Of a stretch of DNA of 64,000 nucleotides, positions 10,167 to 20,720 are shown one piece after another. A program made the position numbers and the translations under genes. The stretch is taken from the NCBI RefSeq assembly GCF_000473205.1, contig NZ_KI421507.1:3457057-3521056 (forward strand), read 5' to 3'. The notes beneath the pieces were generated by a model. The model searched no databases, was not told the DNA's origin, and saw nothing but the letters and a program-made list of their open reading frames with translations. The stretch is from Pseudophaeobacter arcticus DSM 23566. GTDB lineage: Bacteria; Pseudomonadota; Alphaproteobacteria; Rhodobacterales; Rhodobacteraceae. Each line of letters begins with the position of its first letter. Positions within the stretch are counted from its first letter, which is position 1.

Positions 10167-11361
10167 CTAGAGAAAGGTAAAAGCGGGAGGCCGCGAAACC
10201 TTTTCGATTGTCCGAATGGGCTTCATTCGAGTCCGTTGCAGCTGGCTTGGTAGCTGTGCCTGGTCGCTGCTGTATTTTGTCACCAAGAGTGTTTCTGCCC
10301 AAGCGCCATTCGCCCGGACCAGTTGATGCTGATCAAGCAAGATGTGGTAGTACCGTGCAATTTTGCAAGACGGCCGTTCCGTGACACCGGGTAGCCGAAG
10401 AAGCCTTTTTGCCGCCACGATATGGGTGGGATTGTTCTGCGGCAGAGCGATCCTGTGTTGCGGCGAGACGAGAAGTTCGCGGTTCGGTGTCTTCGGCCCG
10501 AGCGCATTGGGACGAATCCGAATAGGTTTCATCTTGTGAGGACCATTTTTGAACTTGTAGCATCTGCAAGAAATGTACCTCACCGGCTGCATTCCGTTGT
10601 CTAGCGTTTCGACCAAGTCGCCCGGGCGTAATGTCTCGACCAGTCTGGCGCCTGTTGCCGTATCGATCAGCGTTCCCTTCAGAAAACACACCGGCCCCGA
10701 CTGAAAGCTGAAATCCGACGCTGACTGAGACGCATAGTTCAACCACTTAACCTGGGTCACCGACCCGTCCGGGAGGGAGATCAGAGTGCCCCAGTTGCCA
10801 TCGTCACTCAGGTACGGCTCAAGCTCGGAATAAGTCGTGATCCCAGGATAGTCGACGAGAAGAATGTCGCCATCGCTTGCGGAATAGTCCTCAATCACAT
10901 CATTGTCGCTGTCGGAGGTAATCACGAACGTGTCGGCACCGCCATGTCCGTAGATCGTATCATTGCCTGCGCCGCTGCGGATCTCGTTATCGCCGTCACC
11001 GCTATAGATCAGGTCGTCGCCAGCCCCCCCCATCGAGCGTGTCATTCCCCTGATCACCATAGATCGTGTCACTGCCGTCGCCGCCATCGATCCAATCATT
11101 GCCCGCGCCGCCATGCACACTATCCGCGCCAGCACCGCCGTAGATAACATCGTCACCATCGGCGCCATATACGGTATCTGCCCCGTCGCCTGCATCAATG
11201 GTGTCGCCGCCATCGGCAGAGCCAAAAGCGTCATCTCCGTGTATGATATCGTCTCCGGCGCCGGCCGCGATTGAGTCTGCGCCTTCGCCACCTGTTATTG
11301 TGTCGTTCCCGGACGTCCCGTATAAGGTGTCGTCACCACCACCACCACTGATTGTCGCCAT
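10167..11361 (-). pseudogene. RTX calcium-binding repeat / Hint-domain protein, frameshifted at a G8 tract
   Basis: Secreted-type protein with about 130 residues of GGxGxDxI/L/V nonapeptide repeats (calcium beta-roll) followed by a Hint domain beginning at CFLKGTLIDTATG and PGDLVETLDNG. The start MATISGGGGDDTLYG is at 11,361, but the frame is lost at a run of eight C on the plus strand (11,024-11,031). With seven, the reading joins perfectly into GGAGDDLIYSGDGD and gives about 397 residues. It may be a real pseudogene, a phase-variable gene or a sequencing error. Similar RTX-Hint proteins are common in Rhodobacteraceae; their roles are mostly untested. No type I secretion genes are adjacent. 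Confidence 0.75.
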
Positions 11362-11866: not shown

Positions 11867-12868
11867 ATGGAACTTCAGTTTCGAACAACCTTGCTCCCGG
11901 ATGCTGATGATCTTCGGGAAACAATCACTCGTTTAATCGACAGGCTCGAAACCTCATTCCGGCATTTGCTGCTTGAGGTGTGGGACAGCCCCAAAAACAA
12001 GGCGAAGGCCGAGGAAAAGCTGAAGCGCATTTTCTCTGGTCAGGGGCGTCCCGACAGCCGTATTTTTGCCGCACATGACGCGATGGTGAATGCAGCGCTC
12101 TCACAGGACGAACCCGGCTTTAACACGACCTGCCTGCAATTTCTACAGCTCCCGGATGAGGTGGAGGCAACTGGCCTCAGGGTGCGCGGCCTGTCAAAAA
12201 TAGAACTGGGCTCCACCGCATGTGACCTTCTTCGCCGAGCGTATTGCGATGATGTCGGGCTTACAACCGATCTGCTCGCTCCTGGCGCCGAGGCGAAGAA
12301 ACAAGCGACTGCCAAGATCAATCAAGCGATAAACATGATGGAAAAATACGCGCCTGACTGGGCAAGGGAATTTGATCTCCTCGCGCCGCAGGTTTACCTT
12401 GCCACCAACCGAGATCCGAAGAAGAGCGGCTTTGGCGGCGCCACGGTCTTTGCCGCTTTCGGTTCCATCCTGATGAACTTCAACAAGATTGATATTCTGC
12501 CGAGGGTTCTGATGACACTGGTGCATGAAAGCTCTCATGCAAAGTTGTTCCTGTATCACCTGGATGACCCTGTCATCTTGAATGAAGATACCGAGCTTTT
12601 CAGCTCTCCCCTTCGCTCCGCGCCGCGCCCCATGGAGGGGATTTTCCATGCGGCTTGGGTTTCCGCGCGAATGGTGCAATCCGCAAATTGTATTCTCGAC
12701 AATGGTTTGTGCGGACCGGACGCCAAAGAGCTGCGCCGCCAAAGCAGCCAGGCGGCGATCGTCTATCAGGATTGTGCCACTCAAATTGAGCAACATGCGC
12801 GTTTGACACCGCTGGGACAGCGGCTGTTTGATGATGCACAGAGAGCAATGTCCGATGTACGCTCCTGA
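11867..12868 (+). CDS. HExxH-motif putative peptide beta-hydroxylase (alpha-ketoglutarate type)
   Basis: Protein of 333 residues resembling the HExxH-motif putative peptide-modification family, members of which are now described as alpha-ketoglutarate-dependent peptide beta-hydroxylases acting on ribosomal peptides. The predicted metal site is His220-Glu-Ser-Ser-His224 in TLVHESSHAKLF, with His261 in EGIFHAAWVSARM as the likely third ligand and arginines just before it (LRSAPRP) as possible co-substrate contacts. The N-terminal 200 residues are helical and charged, without a signal peptide. The 3' end overlaps the adenylation gene by 14 bases. The role here, acting on the 32-residue peptide at 15,100 or on a carrier-bound residue, is inference. 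Confidence 0.7.
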   Translation: MELQFRTTLLPDADDLRETITRLIDRLETSFRHLLLEVWDSPKNKAKAEEKLKRIFSGQGRPDSRIFAAHDAMVNAALSQDEPGFNTTCLQFLQLPDEVEATGLRVRGLSKIELGSTACDLLRRAYCDDVGLTTDLLAPGAEAKKQATAKINQAINMMEKYAPDWAREFDLLAPQVYLATNRDPKKSGFGGATVFAAFGSILMNFNKIDILPRVLMTLVHESSHAKLFLYHLDDPVILNEDTELFSSPLRSAPRPMEGIFHAAWVSARMVQSANCILDNGLCGPDAKELRRQSSQAAIVYQDCATQIEQHARLTPLGQRLFDDAQRAMSDVRS

Positions 12869-14126
12869 CACCATCGGCGCGGCCTTTCTGAAACAGATCG
12901 AGGCAACCCCAGACGCCATACTCTTCGAAACCGGGACCAAGGCCGTCACCTACGCAGACTTCAGCGCGCGCCTTGACATGATGAGGGGCGCCTTTGCAGA
13001 GCACGGCGTTGCCGCGGGTCAGGTGGTGGGGCTTGCAAATACCCACCAGATCGACACCTTCGCTGGAATTTTCGCGCTCTGGGCATTGGGGGCATCTCCC
13101 CTAGTGCTCGACTTCAGAAGTCCGCCTTCGGACATTTTGGAGCAGGCCATCAGGGCGCGTGCGTCATGCGTCTTTTCGGACTTCAGGAAGCTGGCTCGCA
13201 ACGACGGGATTCTGGCGTTTCCACAAGGTGTTGAGGCGACGGCGACACCGGACGCGCTGACTTTGGCACCCGAGCCGCGCGGCACCGCAGATTTCATTAT
13301 GAGCTCTGGCACCACCGGGGCGCCGAAGCTCTACCCGGCCTCGCATGGGGAGCTTTTGAAGGCGATAGAGCGGATGGCCCTACGTGGGGACAGGGGGCAG
13401 TGGGGCAATGCGGTGTCGTGCCTCAACCTCAGCTTTCCGGGAACACGTTATATTTGGTACCGTAATGCGATCAATGGACGAAAGATCATCACTGTCCCGG
13501 TCTTTTTCAGCTACGGCGAACTCGATGCGGCCCTCCTGCATCAGGATGCAGAAGAAGTCACCTTGGCGCCAGTCTTGATCCGCGGTCTGGTCCAGCACAT
13601 TAAGGCGCAAGGGCTGGTCGGGACCGGGCCACGCTACGACCGGTTGGTAAAAATGCAGAGCATAGGCGGGCCTTTGCTTGGTAGGGACCTGACCGAGGCC
13701 AAATCGATCCTGTCAGACAAGCTCTGCGTTACCTATTCCTCCACGCAAACGGGCATCATATCCCGCCTGGAGGGGGATGCGATTGACAGCCACCCGACCT
13801 CCGTCGGAAAGCCGCTTCGGCATCATCTGGTCAGGATCGTTGACGACCATGGCCTCCCGCTGCCGAACAACGAGATCGGTCATATTGAAACGCGGGTTGC
13901 TGACAATACCGCGCGGCCTGGTGATCGGGGCTACCTAGATGACGAAGGCTATCTGTACGTTGTGGGAAGAGTTCAGGAGTACCTGTGCCGAAACGGTGTA
14001 TCCTTTAACGCGCCAGACCTGGAAAACCGGATACAGCGGGTGACTGGCGCCGCTCTGTGTTGCGTGATCCCCGCAGCAAGTGAGGCAGGGGACGAAGAAA
14101 CACCAGAGGTATGCCATGCCATTTGA
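12855..14126 (+). CDS. AMP-forming adenylation enzyme, short C-terminal part
   Basis: Class I adenylate-forming enzyme of 423 residues that would activate a carboxylic or amino acid with ATP for loading on the carrier protein encoded next. The phosphate loop is IMSSGTTGAPK, the ATP/hinge region is GDRGYLDDEGYLYVVGR, and the linker after it (VQEYLCRNGVSFNAPDLE) starts the small C-terminal domain. The protein stops about 50 residues later, so the domain is shorter than usual and the catalytic lysine normally near the end is not visible. It overlaps the upstream HExxH gene and the downstream carrier gene. Substrate unknown. An earlier ATG at 12,828 lies inside the HExxH gene and is less likely. 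Confidence 0.75.
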   Translation: MYAPDTIGAAFLKQIEATPDAILFETGTKAVTYADFSARLDMMRGAFAEHGVAAGQVVGLANTHQIDTFAGIFALWALGASPLVLDFRSPPSDILEQAIRARASCVFSDFRKLARNDGILAFPQGVEATATPDALTLAPEPRGTADFIMSSGTTGAPKLYPASHGELLKAIERMALRGDRGQWGNAVSCLNLSFPGTRYIWYRNAINGRKIITVPVFFSYGELDAALLHQDAEEVTLAPVLIRGLVQHIKAQGLVGTGPRYDRLVKMQSIGGPLLGRDLTEAKSILSDKLCVTYSSTQTGIISRLEGDAIDSHPTSVGKPLRHHLVRIVDDHGLPLPNNEIGHIETRVADNTARPGDRGYLDDEGYLYVVGRVQEYLCRNGVSFNAPDLENRIQRVTGAALCCVIPAASEAGDEETPEVCHAI

Positions 14127-14352
14127 ACTGAGCACCTGCGTCGAAGACGCCTTCAAAACCTGTTTTCCCGATGCCAAGGTATCGCAGGACAGTGATTTTT
14201 TCGATCTGGGCGGGGATTCCCTGAAAGCCGTTGATCTGTGTGGTCTTATTGGGCGATGTCTCCGCGCGGAGGTTCATCCGTCCATTCTGTTTTCACATTC
14301 GACCCCGGCAACGCTTACAGATGCTCTTCGGCGCGAATGCGGGTCCCTATGA
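14116..14352 (+). CDS. Acyl/peptidyl carrier protein
   Basis: Stand-alone carrier protein of 78 residues. The 4'-phosphopantetheine attachment motif is DFFDLGGDSLKAVDL, with the serine of GGDS as attachment site, the form typical of NRPS carriers. The ATG at 14,116 has CAGAGG just upstream and overlaps the end of the adenylation gene by 11 bases, so the two are very likely made as a pair. Its 3' end overlaps the convergent thioesterase gene by 38 bases. No condensation or ketosynthase domain is encoded nearby. Confidence 0.85.
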   Translation: MPFELSTCVEDAFKTCFPDAKVSQDSDFFDLGGDSLKAVDLCGLIGRCLRAEVHPSILFSHSTPATLTDALRRECGSL

Positions 14353-14986
14353 AATTTTCGATGTTCGCGATGAGGTAGGGGAGGTTTTCCGCCCTGAAGT
14401 ATTGGCCATGCCCACAGGGCAGACTTGCTTGCTCATATGCAGGAAACAGGTTTTCTACCCGCTTCTGGGTCACGTATTGATCCTGCATGAAGGGGTTCCG
14501 TTCCGGTGCCTCCACGCCGAAGTTAAGCAACGCAGGAACGGTTATTGCGCGGTCGGGAATGGTATCAATAGCAGCAACAGATTTAATGTCGTGGCCAAGA
14601 TCCATGAGCCTCTGCGCAAGGCAGATGGCATATGGCGCCCCTTGGCAATTCCCACCAACAAGCGCGATGTCTCTGGGCAGCATGCCTGTCAGTGCGTCCG
14701 CCAGATGACCCGCCATTTTGGCACCGACCTCATCCCGCTCGAGTGACGGTTTCATTATGAGGTTGAGAGAGCGGAGTGCCACAAATTGCTGCTCTGGGTT
14801 AAGTGCAGCATGAAAATTCACGGGTTCCTGCTCTGCATTGAAGAACCATAGGATCGGGGGGAGAGTTCCGCCTGAATTCAGATATCTTGCAACCCCGTGA
14901 GGTCCGACGGCCCGGCCCGGCCATTTTTTGGTCAAACGCGCAATGGAACGAAACGTGGCGTCAATTTGCATGCCTGAGGTCATCAT
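14315..14986 (-). CDS. Alpha/beta-hydrolase thioesterase with Cys in the nucleophile elbow
   Basis: Thioesterase-like alpha/beta-hydrolase of 223 residues, similar to NRPS/PKS release or proofreading thioesterases. The nucleophile elbow reads VGGNCQGAPYA, with Cys in place of the usual Ser of GxSxG. A likely catalytic His is in LPCGHGQYF near residue 193, and an Asp near AAIDTIPD is a candidate acid. Cys-type nucleophiles occur in some such thioesterases. It faces the adenylation and carrier genes and lies downstream of the small peptide gene on the same strand. Starts at 14,986 or 14,971 are both possible. Its presence supports release or transfer of a carrier-bound group. Confidence 0.7.
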   Translation of the reverse strand: MMTSGMQIDATFRSIARLTKKWPGRAVGPHGVARYLNSGGTLPPILWFFNAEQEPVNFHAALNPEQQFVALRSLNLIMKPSLERDEVGAKMAGHLADALTGMLPRDIALVGGNCQGAPYAICLAQRLMDLGHDIKSVAAIDTIPDRAITVPALLNFGVEAPERNPFMQDQYVTQKRVENLFPAYEQASLPCGHGQYFRAENLPYLIANIENFIGTRIRAEEHL

Positions 14987-15099
14987 GAGGTCTCTTGTTT
15001 CTGCGATATTGCAGACTAAGGTCTACGCGTGCTTACGGCGACCCGACAGTTGGCAGGTCGCCGCTCTCTTCAGAATCAGGAATATCGTGCCGGATTGGC

Positions 15100-15198
15100 T
15101 TAGAAGCCACCGCCCGGCGCGGGCGGTTCACCGACTTTCGGGGCGGCTGCTGCCTTGCTGCCCTTCAATGTCAGGATTTTATTGGGATCTAATTTCAT
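15100..15198 (-). CDS. 32-residue candidate precursor peptide
   Basis: Short gene not conserved by eye with any named family. The ATG at 15,198 is preceded at 8 bases by AGAGG, a good binding site. The peptide has a charged amphipathic start (MKLDPNKILTLKG), an Ala-rich middle (SKAAAA), and a Pro/Gly-rich end (PKVGEPPAPGGGF). This leader-plus-small-residue-tail design resembles precursors of ribosomally made peptides. It lies 113 bases upstream of the thioesterase on the same strand and near the HExxH hydroxylase. Precursor status is inference from size, design and neighbours; it contains no Cys, Ser or Thr in the tail, so lanthionine or azole chemistry is excluded there. Confidence 0.5.
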   Translation of the reverse strand: MKLDPNKILTLKGSKAAAAPKVGEPPAPGGGF

Positions 15199-15427: not shown

Positions 15428-18400
15428 TCAATGAAAATCACGGCTGGGAAAGAGGCGCTTGGCTTGTTCTCGGGGATGGCGGGCGCTGGCGCGTGGGGCG
15501 TCATCGGCTTCGGGGTGGGTGATGCCGATGGCGTCTTCCATAGGGTGGCCAAGCTCTGTCAGGTGATGTGACCTGTCTTCAATCCTCTGCGCAATCAGAT
15601 GGACAACGATGCCTTCACGTTGCAAGTAGCCACTCACCCGCAGCAATCGCCCCCCCATAACGATGCGGCGGAACTGTTTGTATACCTTTGGCCAGACCAC
15701 GATATTGGACACCCCGGTTTCGTCTTCGAGCGTCAGGAATATCACGCCAGATGCCGTCCCAGGACGCTGGCGGGTGATGACAAGGCCGCAGACACTGACA
15801 CGGCCCAGCGGCACATGTTGCAGCTGATCATGCGGTGTCAGGCCGGGGATTGCGGGGCGCAAAAGCTCCATGGGATGGGCGCGCAATGTCAGGCGGGTGG
15901 CGATGTAATCCTCAACAACTTCTTCGCCTAAATGCATTGTGGGCAAAGTGATATTTGGTTCAAGAATGCATTCGCCATCAATCGGGTCGTTAAACAGCGG
16001 CAAAGGCGTTTGGCTGCGAATGGCTTTCACTTGCCAGAGCGCATCACGTCGGGTTAGCCCCATGCCGATGAAGGCATCGGCTTCGGCCAGACGTTCCAGA
16101 ACCGCAGGCGCAACCCCGGCCCGCAACCAGACACTTTCGGGATCCTGATATCCATTGCGCCGTGCCGCTGCGATCCAGTTTGCATCTTCCTCGCGGAACC
16201 CTTTGATCTGACGGAATCCAAGGCGCATGGCCAATGCCCCATCGGTGCGGCGTTCCAGTATATTATCCCAAGTGCTGGCGTTGACACAGATGGGGCGCAC
16301 CTCGACCTGATGTTCCCGGGCATCGCGCACAATCTGGGCCGGGGCGTAAAACCCCATGGGCTGGGAGTTTAACAGCGCACAGGCAAAGATCGCCGGATGA
16401 TGACACTTCAGCCAAGCGGACACATAGGCCAGCATGGCAAAGGCCGCTGCGTGGCTTTCGGGGAAGCCGTATTCGCCAAAGCCCTCAATCTGGCTAAAAC
16501 ACTGATTGGCGAAATCTTCTGTATATCCACGATTCAGCATGCCGCTTACAAACCGATCCCGAAAGGTGCCGATGGTGCCCATTTTGCGAAAGGTCGCAAG
16601 GGATCGGCGCAGCTTGTCGGCCTCTTCCGGGGTGAAACCCGCGCCGACGACGGCAATCTGCATCGCTTGTTCCTGAAACAGAGGCACGCCAAGGGTTTTG
16701 CCCAAGACACCGCGCAGATCTTCAGAGGGAAAGCTGACCTTTTCGCGCCCTTGGCGGCGGTTGATATAGGGGTGCACCATGCCACCCTGGATGGGGCCGG
16801 GACGCACGATGGCGACCTCGATCACCAGATCATAAAATTCGCGTGGTCGCATGCGCGGCAGGAAATTCATCTGCGCCCGGCTTTCGACCTGAAACACCCC
16901 CACCGCATCGGCAACGCAGAGCATATCGTAGGTTTTTGTGTCGGCCTGCGGCACGCTGGCGATATTTAGGTTTTGATGTTCATGCTGCTTCAAAAGATCA
17001 AAGCTTTTACGGATACAGGTCAGCATTCCAAGGCTAAGCACATCAACCTTTAGAATGCCAAGCGCGTCGATATCGTCCTTATCCCATTCAATAATGGTGC
17101 GGTTATCCATGGCGGCGTTTTCAATCGGACAAAGCTCATCCAGCCGACCCTTGGTGATAATGAAACCGCCGACATGTTGTGACAGATGGCGCGGAAAGCC
17201 GATAATTTCGCCGATTAGGCTGATCGTCTGCGCAAGGCGGCGGTCGTTCAGATCAAGGCCCAACTCGCGAATGCGCGCTGGGTCTGCCCCCCCATCAGAC
17301 ATGCCCCAAATCTGGCCTGAAAGCCCGGCGGTGACATCCTGTGATAGGCCCATGACTTTGCCAACTTCTTTAATCGCGGCGCGAGAACGGAAGCGGATCA
17401 CTGTCGCACATAGCCCGGCACGCTGGCGACCGTAACGCTGATAAATCCACTGGATCACCTCTTCGCGGCGTTCATGTTCAAAATCGACGTCTATATCTGG
17501 TGGCTCGCCACGGTGTTCAGACACGAACCGTTCCACCACCATGGTGATGGTTTCGGGGCTGACATCGGTGATGCCCAAGAGATAGCAAATGATCGAATTT
17601 GCCGCTGATCCGCGCCCCTGACATAAAATACCCTGACTGCGGGCGTATTGCACAATGTCATATACGGTCAGGAAGTAGGCTGGAAAATTAAGCTTTGCGA
17701 CAAGTTTCAATTCCTTTTCAAGCTGCGCTTTGGCCTTGCCGCTGGCTCCATCAGGATAACGTCGTTTCAACCCGTCTCGCGCCAGACGCTCCAGCCGTGT
17801 TATGGGGCTTTCGCCATCCGCAATCTCATCTGGGTATTCATAGCTCAACTCGCTCAGATCAAAACTACAGCGCGCAGCAATTTCCATCGTGCGCCTGATT
17901 GCTGCCGGGTGATGACGAAACAACCGCGCCATATCGACATGGCCTTTCAGGCGACGTTCAGCATTTGGCAAAGCACGGGTGCCGATCTGGTCAATGGTGA
18001 TGTGATGGCGCATGCAGGTCAGAACATCCACCAGTTGTTTGCGTTTGCCATGGTGCATCAAGACATCCCCCACAGCCACCATGGGGGTGGACCCACGCAA
18101 CGCCAGATCAGCGCAAGCGGTGAAATGGGTCTGATCGCTGCCATCATATTGCGGAGCCGCGCCCAGAAAGACGTGGCCGGGAAAGCGGCGCTGGACAGGA
18201 TGGATATCACCTAGCGCCGTATCCAGATCACGGGGTATCGCGATCAAGATCATTCCCGTGGCGTGATCTGTCAGATCCTTCAGGTCAAGGTGACATTCTC
18301 CTTTTGGCGCGCGTCGTTTGCCAAGTGTCAACAGCCGTGTAAGTTGTTGATAAGCCGTGCGATCTGTGGGCAGCGCCAGCCAGTCAACGCTGCTATCGCG

Positions 18401-18631
18401 CAGCACCAGCCGACAGCCAACAATCAGCTTCGGCAATTTTTCTGCGGGAATATCATCCTTCAAAACCTTCAATGCGGAATAGGCCCGCACGACACCGGCC
18501 AGCGAATTACGATCCGTGATGGCAATCGCCGTAAGGCCCAAATCAGCGGCGCGTGTGATCAGTTCTTCGGGGTGGGATGCCCCGGTGAGAAAGGTGAAAT
18601 TGCTGGTGGTGCAAAGCTCGGCATAGGTCAT
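15428..18631 (-). CDS. dnaE2: Error-prone DNA polymerase DnaE2 (ImuC)
   Basis: Catalytic subunit of the ImuABC mutasome, which performs SOS-induced translesion synthesis. The 1,067 residues start MTYAELCTTSNFTFLTGASH with the PHP domain, followed by the polymerase palm/finger region (CQGRGSAANSIICYLLGI, DIDVDFEHERREEVIQW), helix-hairpin-helix and OB-fold parts (VSVCGLVITRQRPGTASG). The length is right for DnaE2. Its ATG overlaps the imuB stop (ATGA). The cassette lies between the two tRNA-Phe/integrase junctions. Confidence 0.95.
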   Translation of the reverse strand: MTYAELCTTSNFTFLTGASHPEELITRAADLGLTAIAITDRNSLAGVVRAYSALKVLKDDIPAEKLPKLIVGCRLVLRDSSVDWLALPTDRTAYQQLTRLLTLGKRRAPKGECHLDLKDLTDHATGMILIAIPRDLDTALGDIHPVQRRFPGHVFLGAAPQYDGSDQTHFTACADLALRGSTPMVAVGDVLMHHGKRKQLVDVLTCMRHHITIDQIGTRALPNAERRLKGHVDMARLFRHHPAAIRRTMEIAARCSFDLSELSYEYPDEIADGESPITRLERLARDGLKRRYPDGASGKAKAQLEKELKLVAKLNFPAYFLTVYDIVQYARSQGILCQGRGSAANSIICYLLGITDVSPETITMVVERFVSEHRGEPPDIDVDFEHERREEVIQWIYQRYGRQRAGLCATVIRFRSRAAIKEVGKVMGLSQDVTAGLSGQIWGMSDGGADPARIRELGLDLNDRRLAQTISLIGEIIGFPRHLSQHVGGFIITKGRLDELCPIENAAMDNRTIIEWDKDDIDALGILKVDVLSLGMLTCIRKSFDLLKQHEHQNLNIASVPQADTKTYDMLCVADAVGVFQVESRAQMNFLPRMRPREFYDLVIEVAIVRPGPIQGGMVHPYINRRQGREKVSFPSEDLRGVLGKTLGVPLFQEQAMQIAVVGAGFTPEEADKLRRSLATFRKMGTIGTFRDRFVSGMLNRGYTEDFANQCFSQIEGFGEYGFPESHAAAFAMLAYVSAWLKCHHPAIFACALLNSQPMGFYAPAQIVRDAREHQVEVRPICVNASTWDNILERRTDGALAMRLGFRQIKGFREEDANWIAAARRNGYQDPESVWLRAGVAPAVLERLAEADAFIGMGLTRRDALWQVKAIRSQTPLPLFNDPIDGECILEPNITLPTMHLGEEVVEDYIATRLTLRAHPMELLRPAIPGLTPHDQLQHVPLGRVSVCGLVITRQRPGTASGVIFLTLEDETGVSNIVVWPKVYKQFRRIVMGGRLLRVSGYLQREGIVVHLIAQRIEDRSHHLTELGHPMEDAIGITHPEADDAPRASARHPREQAKRLFPSRDFH

Positions 18632-20124
18632 GCGAATTCCCCCTGCACAAACCAGCCGTGATTTTGCGGCGTGTAAAACAGCCAAAGCCTGCGCCCCTGT
18701 CGCGTTTCGACCCGCCAGTAATCACGTATGCCAGAGCGCCAATTTTCATCCTCCATCCACCATTCAGGCACGATGCGTTCCGGCCCTGTGGCACGCCCTG
18801 TCGTCAACGCCATGCGGCGCCACCGAAATCGCGCGGGCGGTCGTGACCCATCCCCAGCAATGGGTTCAGGCGGGAACAGGCGAATGGGGCGGGGTTGCGA
18901 ATGTGCCCATGCATCGCTGGGCGATGAAAACGCCGCAGGGGCAATGATAAAGCTACGCTCTGGTATATGGCTGTCGGCGGGAAGAAACTGCTGGATGTTC
19001 TCAAGACCAATCCGTGCGCCAAGTCGCGTGATCAGGTCATCCAGCTGATTCTTGCCGCCATTTGAAACATGGCTGATCTGTTGCACAGGCAGCTTTTCGA
19101 CCTGCGTAGCACTCAGGCGTATCTGGTCAATTCCAAACCCTGCATCAACCGTATCAATCCCGCGTTGAAACAGGGGCAAAATGCGAGGGGCATCATGCAA
19201 AGCACGGGCCAGCCGCAGTTCAACGTCTTGTGCCTCCCGATCCACCCGCCGCAGGGACAAGAGCAGGATGCGCGCCCCGACACCATCAACGGCAAGCCGT
19301 TCACACAGTTTCACCAAAAGGCGCTCCACCCCTGCCATGACATCAGCGCAAAGGCCAATGGGTTCGGGAAAGCTCATGCGCACCGCGTAATGTGGTGGGT
19401 CTTTCAGTGGCGTGATCTCTTCGGGTTGCGCCCCAATCGCTTGATCTAAGCGCAGTAAAAGCCCCCGACCAAAACGTCGCGCAAGCGGTGCGCGCTCTGT
19501 GGCGATGAGATCGCCAATTGTGCGCAGCCCAAGCCGTTGCAGCGCCACATCGGTCTTGCGCTCGATACGCAGGGCGGCGACAGGCAAAGTCGCCAGTGCG
19601 GTCTGCATATCATCTGGTGTGGGTGTATTGCCATAATGCGCCAACGCCCAGGCCGCGCCACGACTGACACCAAGCCCGATGCGCACCGCAAAACCCGCGC
19701 GCGTCAGGCGCTGGTGCATATCCTCAATCATAGCGGCTTCATCGCCGAATAGGTGGGCAGAGCCTGTGATATCCAGGGTCAAACCATCAGCGCCCTCCAG
19801 CCCAACCCAGGGGCAATAGCGCGTTGCCCAACGGCGTAATGTCAGCAAAAAACACTGATCCGCCTTTGGATTTGCCGGCATGCTGTACAGCTCCGGGCAA
19901 AAGGCGCGGGCGTCTGAAAACGGCATGCCTTGGTGCAGGCCCTGCTTTTCTGCCGCTTTGTTCAGGCAATAAATCCGGTTTGCGTTGCGCTCAATCAGAG
20001 TCAGCGCAAATGGTCCCTCTATTGGACGCGCGCGTATAACCCGGTCACTCGCCAGGCGGGGAAACCACAACGATACGATCCGCCGGGTTGGATTTTGTCG
20101 CGTCCCATCGAACATACCAATCAC
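18628..20124 (-). CDS. imuB: ImuB, inactive Y-family polymerase-like protein
   Basis: Adaptor of the ImuABC mutasome: a Y-family polymerase homologue that lacks catalytic acidic residues and links DnaE2 to the sliding clamp. It has 498 residues, beginning with GTG at 20,124 (an ATG at 20,115 is the alternative), with the Y-family fold visible in RRIVSLWFPRLASDRV and DGLTLDITGSAHLFGDE. The C-terminal tail is rich in Trp and Arg. The gene starts inside imuA (overlap about 80 bases) and its stop overlaps dnaE2, so all three are co-translated. Confidence 0.93.
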   Translation of the reverse strand: MIGMFDGTRQNPTRRIVSLWFPRLASDRVIRARPIEGPFALTLIERNANRIYCLNKAAEKQGLHQGMPFSDARAFCPELYSMPANPKADQCFLLTLRRWATRYCPWVGLEGADGLTLDITGSAHLFGDEAAMIEDMHQRLTRAGFAVRIGLGVSRGAAWALAHYGNTPTPDDMQTALATLPVAALRIERKTDVALQRLGLRTIGDLIATERAPLARRFGRGLLLRLDQAIGAQPEEITPLKDPPHYAVRMSFPEPIGLCADVMAGVERLLVKLCERLAVDGVGARILLLSLRRVDREAQDVELRLARALHDAPRILPLFQRGIDTVDAGFGIDQIRLSATQVEKLPVQQISHVSNGGKNQLDDLITRLGARIGLENIQQFLPADSHIPERSFIIAPAAFSSPSDAWAHSQPRPIRLFPPEPIAGDGSRPPARFRWRRMALTTGRATGPERIVPEWWMEDENWRSGIRDYWRVETRQGRRLWLFYTPQNHGWFVQGEFA

Positions 20125-20626
20125 ACAATGTTCCTGATTTGTTCTTAATAAGACACCAGCGCATCAGAGTCGAGTCCGCTCGTTCAGGATCGAACACCGG
20201 ATCACAGTGCCAACGGGTTTCGGCAGCATTGCTGCCCATCCCTTCGGGAATAATGCACAGCCCGGTTGCGCCCCCATTTTTCGCGGCCAGTTGCAGCCGC
20301 CGCCCCGCCGTCAGATCAAGCGGTTGGTCCAGTTCTATGATGACAAGCGATACACTGCCATCGCGCAGGGCTTCCTCCATCACAGCAAGCCCTTCCACCT
20401 GATTTTTGACCTGCGCCAATAGTATCTTAGATGGGTCACAGTACGATAGCAGCCCAACAGGGTGTAGCAGATCAGATTTCCACTCTTGGCGGATCCAAAG
20501 CACGCGGGCATGGTTCTGCGCCGCCGAAATCACAGCGAACTCAAAGGCACTGGCACCACATCCTTCGTGGACACGGGATTTTGCCAATGGGAAACAGATA
20601 AGGGGTTTGGGTTGCATGGCAGACAT
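20045..20626 (-). CDS. imuA: ImuA, RecA/SulA-like mutasome protein
   Basis: First gene of the imuA-imuB-dnaE2 cassette. ImuA proteins resemble RecA/SulA and are required for damage-induced mutagenesis in alphaproteobacteria. The 193 residues from ATG 20,626 (GGAGG upstream) include VLWIRQEW, SLVIIELDQPLDLTAGRRLQLA and VRWDATKSNPADRIVV. It is at the short end for the family. A clear LexA site (GTTC-N7-GTTC) is not visible in the 90 bases upstream, where the old tRNA junction begins, so the promoter may have been altered by the insertion. Confidence 0.88.
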   Translation of the reverse strand: MSAMQPKPLICFPLAKSRVHEGCGASAFEFAVISAAQNHARVLWIRQEWKSDLLHPVGLLSYCDPSKILLAQVKNQVEGLAVMEEALRDGSVSLVIIELDQPLDLTAGRRLQLAAKNGGATGLCIIPEGMGSNAAETRWHCDPVFDPERADSTLMRWCLIKNKSGTLCDWYVRWDATKSNPADRIVVVSPPGE

Positions 20627-20720
20627 ATTATCGAAGCCTCCCATGAAATGAAACTGGGTGTCGTATGGGTGTCAAAATGCTTGTGCTTGAACGCTGCGCT
20701 CTGCCCAGAGACTGAGGGAA

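Follow-up and report, generated by a model that had tools for sequence, protein, structure and literature searches.

What would be made by a locus in which a putative peptide oxygenase, the parts of a carrier-protein pathway and a gene for a 32-residue peptide lie side by side? Five such genes are found at 11867-15198 of a 64,000-nucleotide stretch of the Pseudophaeobacter arcticus DSM 23566 genome (5.05 Mb; the whole stretch, on contig C6, is called the window here). They encode a candidate alpha-ketoglutarate-dependent HExxH-type (aKG-HExxH) peptide hydroxylase, a putative acid-adenylating enzyme, a carrier protein, a thioesterase-like protein with a Cys nucleophile and a precursor peptide. 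An earlier note had described this set from the DNA letters, and its account of the gene content stands: the coordinates and the Pfam and TIGR04267 profiles agree. On comparative grounds we lean, with modest confidence, towards the view that the module is a compact system of the ribosomally synthesized and post-translationally modified peptide (RiPP) type, which would combine a predicted hydroxylation of the peptide with a carrier-fed acid attached by the Cys thioesterase. Support comes from 19 loci that hold all five parts, a conserved peptide, the family and predicted fold of the HExxH protein and its phylogenetic tree, one locus (L071) with fused parts, the Cys nucleophile, phosphopantetheinyl transferase candidates in the genome, and the precedent of nosiheptide biosynthesis.

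In the proposed scheme, a conserved KLLxL segment in the N-terminal part of the peptide would be recognised by the HExxH protein, which, using iron and alpha-ketoglutarate, would hydroxylate the peptide, most likely at or next to Lys21 of a K-[VI]-G motif. The adenylation enzyme would activate a carboxylic acid and load it onto the carrier, from which the thioesterase would take the acyl group as a Cys-thioester and pass it, without hydrolysis, to the Lys amine or to the new hydroxyl. Adenylation enzyme, carrier and thioesterase would thus jointly fill the role that an ATP-grasp ligase may have in some sister HExxH clusters. We infer hydroxylation near Lys21 and acylation by the thioesterase from the NosI-NosJ-NosK proteins of nosiheptide biosynthesis and from known HExxH peptide enzymes; the order of the steps, the identity of the acid and the fate of the product are likewise proposals.

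The five-part set was found in 19 alphaproteobacterial loci counting the window. Each species is represented by a single genome in the collections used, and all searches are samples. Fourteen loci were fetched by alignment of the HExxH protein or by place and then searched with the window proteins by tblastn. The HExxH protein was recovered in all 14 (71-80% identity in L006, L007, L009 and L010; 35-40% in L011-L020), as were the adenylation enzyme (77% in near and 29-35% in distant relatives), the carrier, and the thioesterase (75-80% and 26-33%, respectively; partial in L012, which is left out of the peptide and thioesterase counts because its contig ends within the thioesterase gene). The peptide matched at E<=0.01 in 11 of the 14, and those of L011 (tblastn E 0.84) and L019 were added from reading frames. 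Four more module loci (L056, L059, L071 and L073) emerged when 390 genomes from the order were surveyed; in this survey an HExxH gene fitting the module profile occurred in 16 genomes at 18 places, 10 of which are module loci. L001-L005 and L008 duplicate counted loci, and L023, with an HExxH fragment, is not counted. The parts are rearranged in some members: adenylation enzyme, carrier and thioesterase form a single protein of 841 aa in L071, and in L018 and L020 the carrier gene shares its strand with the thioesterase gene and precedes it. Among plasmids, 4 of 72,556 records matched the HExxH protein, at 26-33% identity over 32-61% of the query.

The precursor peptide gene (MKLDPNKILTLKGSKAAAAPKVGEPPAPGGGF; 15100-15198, minus strand, 32 aa) was recognised as an open reading frame (ORF) with an upstream AGAGGA. 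The earlier note had proposed asking whether homologous loci keep this gene: it is present in 17 of 17 readable relatives, hence in 18 of 18 module loci with the window, on uneven evidence. Most of the peptides are clearly similar; those of L056 and L059 are weaker yet better than shuffles (the start codon of the latter is not settled), and that of L071 is weak. Across 15 aligned precursors, from which the tandem precursor of L015 was left out, M1, K7, L9, L11, G13, A16, A17 and K21 are invariant and the C terminus is variable. Codon comparison of the window gene gave proportions of nonsynonymous and synonymous differences (pN/pS) of 0.04/0.13 against L007, 0.10/0.51 against L009 and 0.15/0.61 against L010; the peptide is under purifying selection. 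Because 18 other loci have these parts as well and pN lies below pS in the peptide gene, we regard the module as more than a chance assembly.

Lys-x-Gly occurs in 18 of 20 module precursors, the exceptions being one of L013 (K-I-S) and that of L019 (K-A-S), and the narrower K[VIM]G in 17 of 20, where shuffled sequences would give 0.86, a comparison in which the peptides are related and so not independent. None of the 20 contains Cys. The unit KLLxLxGSxAAxxxK[VI]G stands in tandem within one precursor in Shimia haliotis (L015), in L073, whose precursor is identical to a protein named for Sulfitobacter guttiformis, and in P0155 (KVG and KVS); L013 and L018 each have two precursor genes. Ser14 was considered as an invariant acceptor and rejected, as L009 has Gly and L014 Thr at this position. 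In L023, from a Celeribacter metagenome-assembled genome, a bacterial Ig-like/cadherin-like protein (2287-2700) begins with the peptide motif (LQGSAAARSAKIG) and is encoded close to the HExxH fragment; the motif would be either a tag that is modified as part of a larger protein or a sign of decay.

The HExxH gene (11867-12868, plus strand) encodes 333 aa and scores 78.1 bits with TIGR04267 against a cut-off of 40. Its HESSH motif spans residues 220-224, and H220, E221, H224, N239, R250, R254, E257 and H261 are invariant in 27 aligned sequences. An AlphaFold2 model (predicted local distance difference test, pLDDT, 93) has as its best Protein Data Bank (PDB) match the HExxH domain of ChlH (8s5f; E 3.8e-12, template modelling score 0.68), followed by SjiH (22ob; E 8.7e-7), with the next row at 0.18. 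A sequence profile (A1) found 8s5f (4.9e-6) and 22nu/22ob (3.2e-4), and its alignment to them covers the HExxH motif and a downstream RPxxGxxHA-type stretch. The protein thus belongs to the aKG-HExxH peptide-hydroxylase family by profile and predicted fold, hydroxylation itself being a prediction. The check for a non-peptide metalloenzyme suggested by the earlier note came out in favour of peptide hydroxylases, and a metalloprotease reading was rejected, the profile and fold matches being aKG-HExxH oxygenases. A tree of 35 rows groups all 19 module rows together (support 87/73, recovered in 85% of bootstrap trees). The rows that come from loci with an ATP-grasp or ATP-grasp-like gene fall outside this group, the nearest among them not being resolved, and L071 sits on a long branch. 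Members of the family hydroxylate peptides at Gln and Asn (PMC12636437), at Pro (PMC13060819) and at ortho-tyrosine (PMC12707348).

The stand-alone adenylation gene (12855-14126, plus strand, 423 aa; Pfam AMP-binding, 100.6 bits) is truncated, which had escaped the earlier note. Residues 1-415 match the intact P0034 (481 aa) at 410 of 415 positions and are followed at once by the last 10 residues of P0034 (10 of 10), so that 58 codons are missing, including a stretch with PKTSGLK; the same 174-nt gap is seen in comparison with the DNA of three relatives. The A10 catalytic Lys, present in P0034 and in 18 of 18 module relatives when motifs A3-A10 are aligned, is absent from the window, where the class I adenylate-forming fold and the other motifs are kept. 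With 58 codons including the catalytic Lys lost, the window enzyme is probably dead or crippled. The loss is either a real deletion or an assembly error. Over the shared part, the window protein is 99% identical to a protein named for Pseudophaeobacter arcticus, and intact copies exist, since P0034 represents 9 sequences on 14 contigs.

As to the acid, all 19 module rows carry P, G, S or T at position A4, where the alignment of L071 is poor; Asp stands there in one outside reference, P0062, and is missing from the other, P0140. In adenylation domains of nonribosomal peptide synthetases (NRPSs), Asp at this position (Asp235 of PheA) anchors the alpha-amino group. Its absence argues against an ordinary alpha-amino acid as substrate, and judged by these residues the activated acid is probably something else. 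The top PDB rows for the enzyme of L007 are ligases of the fatty-acyl and dihydroxybenzoate types, and some NRPS domains rank below them. The subclades vary in their pocket residues and may therefore also vary in the acid that they use.

The carrier gene (14116-14352, plus strand) encodes a stand-alone protein of 78 aa with a PP-binding match of 43.7 bits and a GGDSL phosphopantetheine site; the GGDS motif is shared by the window and 18 of 18 other module loci, and three matches over the cut-off are candidate phosphopantetheinyl transferases in the genome. The alpha/beta-hydrolase thioesterase-like gene (14315-14986, minus strand, 223 aa), our acyltransferase candidate, reaches only 13.4 bits with Pfam Thioesterase, under the cut-off of 26.4, and searching the PDB by sequence brought up no usable match (best E 0.11); its predicted fold, however, is clear and matches type II and NRPS thioesterases. 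It has a GGNCQG motif, Cys114 as nucleophile and His193, and all 18 readable module loci, the window among them, have a Cys nucleophile. A thioesterase search of the order matched 122 of 390 genomes at E<=0.001, which is not a module count because most rows are weak matches within frames of more than 1000 aa, probably NRPS thioesterases. Thioesterases of the module family also occur in other settings. At 1454-9747 of L055, in the same genome (C6, ~2.94-2.95 Mb), a second one has as neighbours a B12 radical S-adenosylmethionine (SAM) protein, an AMP-binding enzyme, a weak cytochrome P450 match, a carrier match and a carbamoyltransferase, a candidate for another small carrier-based pathway; in L060, one is found with a radical SAM protein and a carrier.

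The HExxH and adenylation genes overlap head-to-tail by 14 nt, if translation of the latter starts at the ATG used by P0034, and the adenylation and carrier genes by 11 nt. The thioesterase gene is convergent with this trio and is preceded on its own strand by the peptide gene. No condensation domain was found by Pfam in the five proteins, as the earlier note had it, nor in the fused protein of L071; Pfam matches to OS-D and GH3 are below the cut-off. When 15 loci were clustered by ORFs of at least 70 aa, before L056, L059, L071 and L073 were added, the flanks were mostly dissimilar beyond the module, except in the same-genus pair L006/L007. The commonest extra neighbour is a 2-oxoglutarate-Fe(II) oxygenase near the precursor gene in L013, L015, L016 and L017 (PF13640 confirmed in L013 and L017), perhaps an optional second hydroxylase for the Pro-rich C terminus. 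No recurring protease or exporter was seen beside the module by this ORF clustering, in which not all neighbours were annotated.

How does the module relate to HExxH loci with other partners? Eight of the 18 HExxH places in the order survey are not module loci, and five of these were fetched. Four of the five (L075-L078), and L080, encode a 325 aa protein of one family; at L079 neither this protein nor an ATP-grasp was found. A cyanophycin-synthetase-like ATP-grasp accompanies the HExxH gene in L021, L022, L024, L083 and L098, and is well supported in L024 and L098. At some of the ATP-grasp and ATP-grasp-like loci, the window carrier was used as a tblastn query and no carrier turned up. The peptides beside these HExxH genes begin with KLxGF or similar and carry K-x-G. 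Those of L021, L024, L077, L078 and L079 were listed without a motif filter, as was that of L098; the remaining 9 of the 14 counted for K-x-G were motif-filtered, so this count is partly circular. Scored with a profile of 15 module peptides, L098 and two peptides of L075 (c and e) beat 1000 of 1000 shuffles and L024 beats 999, and for L075a, L075b, L075d, L078 and L079 2-6 of 1000 shuffles score as high.

We read these loci as one peptide-and-hydroxylase platform paired with different carboxylate ligases, the adenylation-carrier-Cys thioesterase set being that of the module clade. In its full form, the idea is tentative and may well not hold: an HExxH-peptide family would be built around an invariant Lys, usually in Lys-x-Gly, with an interchangeable ligase, either a cyanophycin-synthetase-like ATP-grasp, the 325 aa ATP-grasp-like protein or the adenylation-carrier-Cys thioesterase set, the last of which would perform carrier-fed acylation of the (hydroxylated) Lys. 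In the available parts of the literature, we found no account of carrier-fed acylation of lysine or hydroxylysine in ribosomal peptides. Three other arrangements were seen around HExxH genes. At 7700-12070 of L075, the gene is accompanied by short precursor peptides of five kinds and by the 325 aa protein in duplicate, a set that looks like an undescribed peptide family; in L077 (7252-7425) and L078 (7543-7758), precursors with two or three LKMGxKG-like repeats lie beside HExxH and ATP-grasp-like genes; and in L084 (745-1038), a peptide with ILDTTxAxPQTGK repeats precedes the HExxH gene, which suggests a different core type for the family.

The closest published precedent is nosiheptide, in which NosI activates an acid, NosJ carries it, the essential NosK releases it and NosN acts on the NosJ-bound acid (PMC5585349). 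As in the module, a stand-alone adenylating enzyme, a carrier and a hydrolase-like protein there handle an acid in a RiPP pathway (PMC5585349). The module differs in its HExxH oxygenase, its Cys nucleophile, its Cys-free peptide with a Lys motif and the lack of thiopeptide machinery among the five proteins. Thiopeptide core peptides contain Cys. By Pfam, none of the five module proteins is a radical SAM partner like NosL or NosN, further neighbours not having been scanned. With the loci of ChlH, PflC/PosC, BipH/BpmH and PesO the module shares TIGR04267, the HExxH site, a nearby peptide gene and a predicted fold near 8s5f (PMC12636437, PMC12707348, PMC13060819); it differs from them in its adenylation-carrier-thioesterase partner, in the invariant Lys of the peptide and in that no gene among the five is of the multinuclear non-heme iron oxidative enzyme (MNIO), radical SAM or asparagine-synthetase-like kind. 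The ATP-grasp HExxH loci resemble it in having an HExxH enzyme and a short peptide with a KLxGF-like start and Lys-x-Gly, and differ in the ligase. In graspetides, too, a ligase acts on a short ribosomal peptide, and one graspetide has 5-hydroxylysine in an isopeptide bond (PMC13097080); their linkages join side chains within the peptide, whereas activation in the module would pass through a carrier. Compared with the NRPS thioesterase domains of ObiF1, SulM, NocB and SrfTE, the module thioesterase is free-standing (223 aa) and has no condensation domain among its partner proteins. The literature, in its available parts, yielded no description of an HExxH enzyme combined with adenylation enzyme, carrier and thioesterase; one paper with an HExxH enzyme, an adenylation domain and a precursor peptide was set aside, as its adenylation domains belong to a separate NRPS cluster.

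The earlier note had named two alternatives, an amino acid hydroxylated on a carrier and a carrier-activated unit added to a ribosomal peptide; we favour the latter, the former being less likely in view of the carrier-free HExxH/peptide loci and the missing A4 Asp. In a rival mechanism, the HExxH protein would hydroxylate the acyl group on the carrier, and the thioesterase would then move the hydroxy-acid to the peptide. The nosiheptide enzyme NosN is a precedent (PMC5585349), and the HExxH and adenylation genes, overlapping by 14 nt, are probably co-translated; however, some HExxH relatives have an ATP-grasp or ATP-grasp-like gene and a peptide beside them at places where no carrier was found by tblastn, and the characterised HExxH enzymes act, by their available descriptions, on peptides, which leaves this order of events unlikely in our judgement. 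The thioesterase might alternatively be an editing or releasing hydrolase, with adenylation enzyme and carrier making a free acid and the HExxH protein and peptide forming a separate neighbouring system. Its fold, that of ordinary type II and NRPS thioesterases, and the related thioesterase of the L055 carrier locus, in which tblastn found no HExxH gene, would suit this reading; we give it very little weight, since the five parts stand together in 19 loci, the HExxH proteins form one group and the nucleophile is consistently Cys.

A further reading takes the peptide as a scaffold on which an acid or amino acid is built before being cut off as a small molecule or cofactor. In pathways of the pyrroloquinoline quinone or pearlin type, a product is built on a scaffold peptide and then released. 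The module peptide is tiny, strongly conserved around Lys and variable at its C terminus, and clustering showed no other gene recurring beside most loci; this same clustering showed no recurring peptidase, a scaffold-peptide ligase not having been sought, and we consider the scaffold improbable, if slightly less so than the free-acid pathway. For the window copy alone, it is nearly an even question whether it is a decaying relic without function, which is compatible with carrier-fed peptide acylation elsewhere. The loss of 58 codons with the catalytic Lys and a neighbouring gene split over two frames point that way, but the remaining four reading frames are open, conservation extends to the peptide, and the loss keeps the frame and could be an assembly error.

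Several observations weigh against our preferred reading of hydroxylation and carrier-fed acylation of a ribosomal peptide. In vitro, NosK was not observed to pass the acid on to the peptide (PMC5585349). The available texts name His, Asp, Asn, Phe, Gln and Pro for the HExxH family but not Lys, and hydroxylation could therefore fall on a different residue or on the acid held by the carrier. With the catalytic Lys lost, the pathway as drawn may not be running in the window strain. The peptide of L071 came from a motif-guided look, and 38 of 1000 shuffles score as high with the module peptide profile; K-x-G is common in Lys- and Gly-rich peptides and arises by shuffling alone in 7.4 of 20. Outside the module, the peptides of L021, L022, L076, L080 and L083 do no better than shuffled versions of themselves, 65-237 of 1000 of which score as high, and that of L077 is weak (30). 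The 325 aa partner is tentatively an ATP-grasp by sequence: Pfam ATP-grasp matches 1 of 6 members, below the cut-off (E 0.032), and the best PDB rows for the family profile are D-Ala-D-Ala ligases at E 0.05-0.36, which does not bear it out as a proven ATP-grasp. Finally, a K-x-G peptide was found at 3 of 19 HExxH loci from surveys of the class and phylum (L080, L083 and L098) and not at the other 16. These 19 were viewed of 25, 11 with the motif filter and 8 more, together with 4 of the 11, without a Lys-motif filter; L106-L111 were left out. We therefore rejected the idea that K-x-G marks the HExxH family as a whole: Lys-motif peptides are one branch of its loci.

Around the module, three minus-strand genes at 15428-20644 adjoin the peptide side and resemble the imuA-imuB-dnaE2 mutagenesis cassette. 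On the other side, at 10167-11361 (minus strand), a protein with RTX calcium-binding repeats and a Hint domain is encoded in two frames (ORFs of 119 aa and 374 aa) whose overlap contains eight consecutive C (11024-11031); a frameshift, a phase-variable run or a sequencing error would each account for the split.

The window strain is a poor choice for study, and relatives hold the intact set. If our reading is true, carrier-protein and ribosomal-peptide chemistry would be joined in ~3.3 kb, together with a natural ligase swap that could be compared side by side. The module would offer a small, portable means of placing chosen acids on a Lys of a genetically encoded peptide, and it would provide a testable prediction, at Lys21, for an HExxH family whose substrates are still being found.

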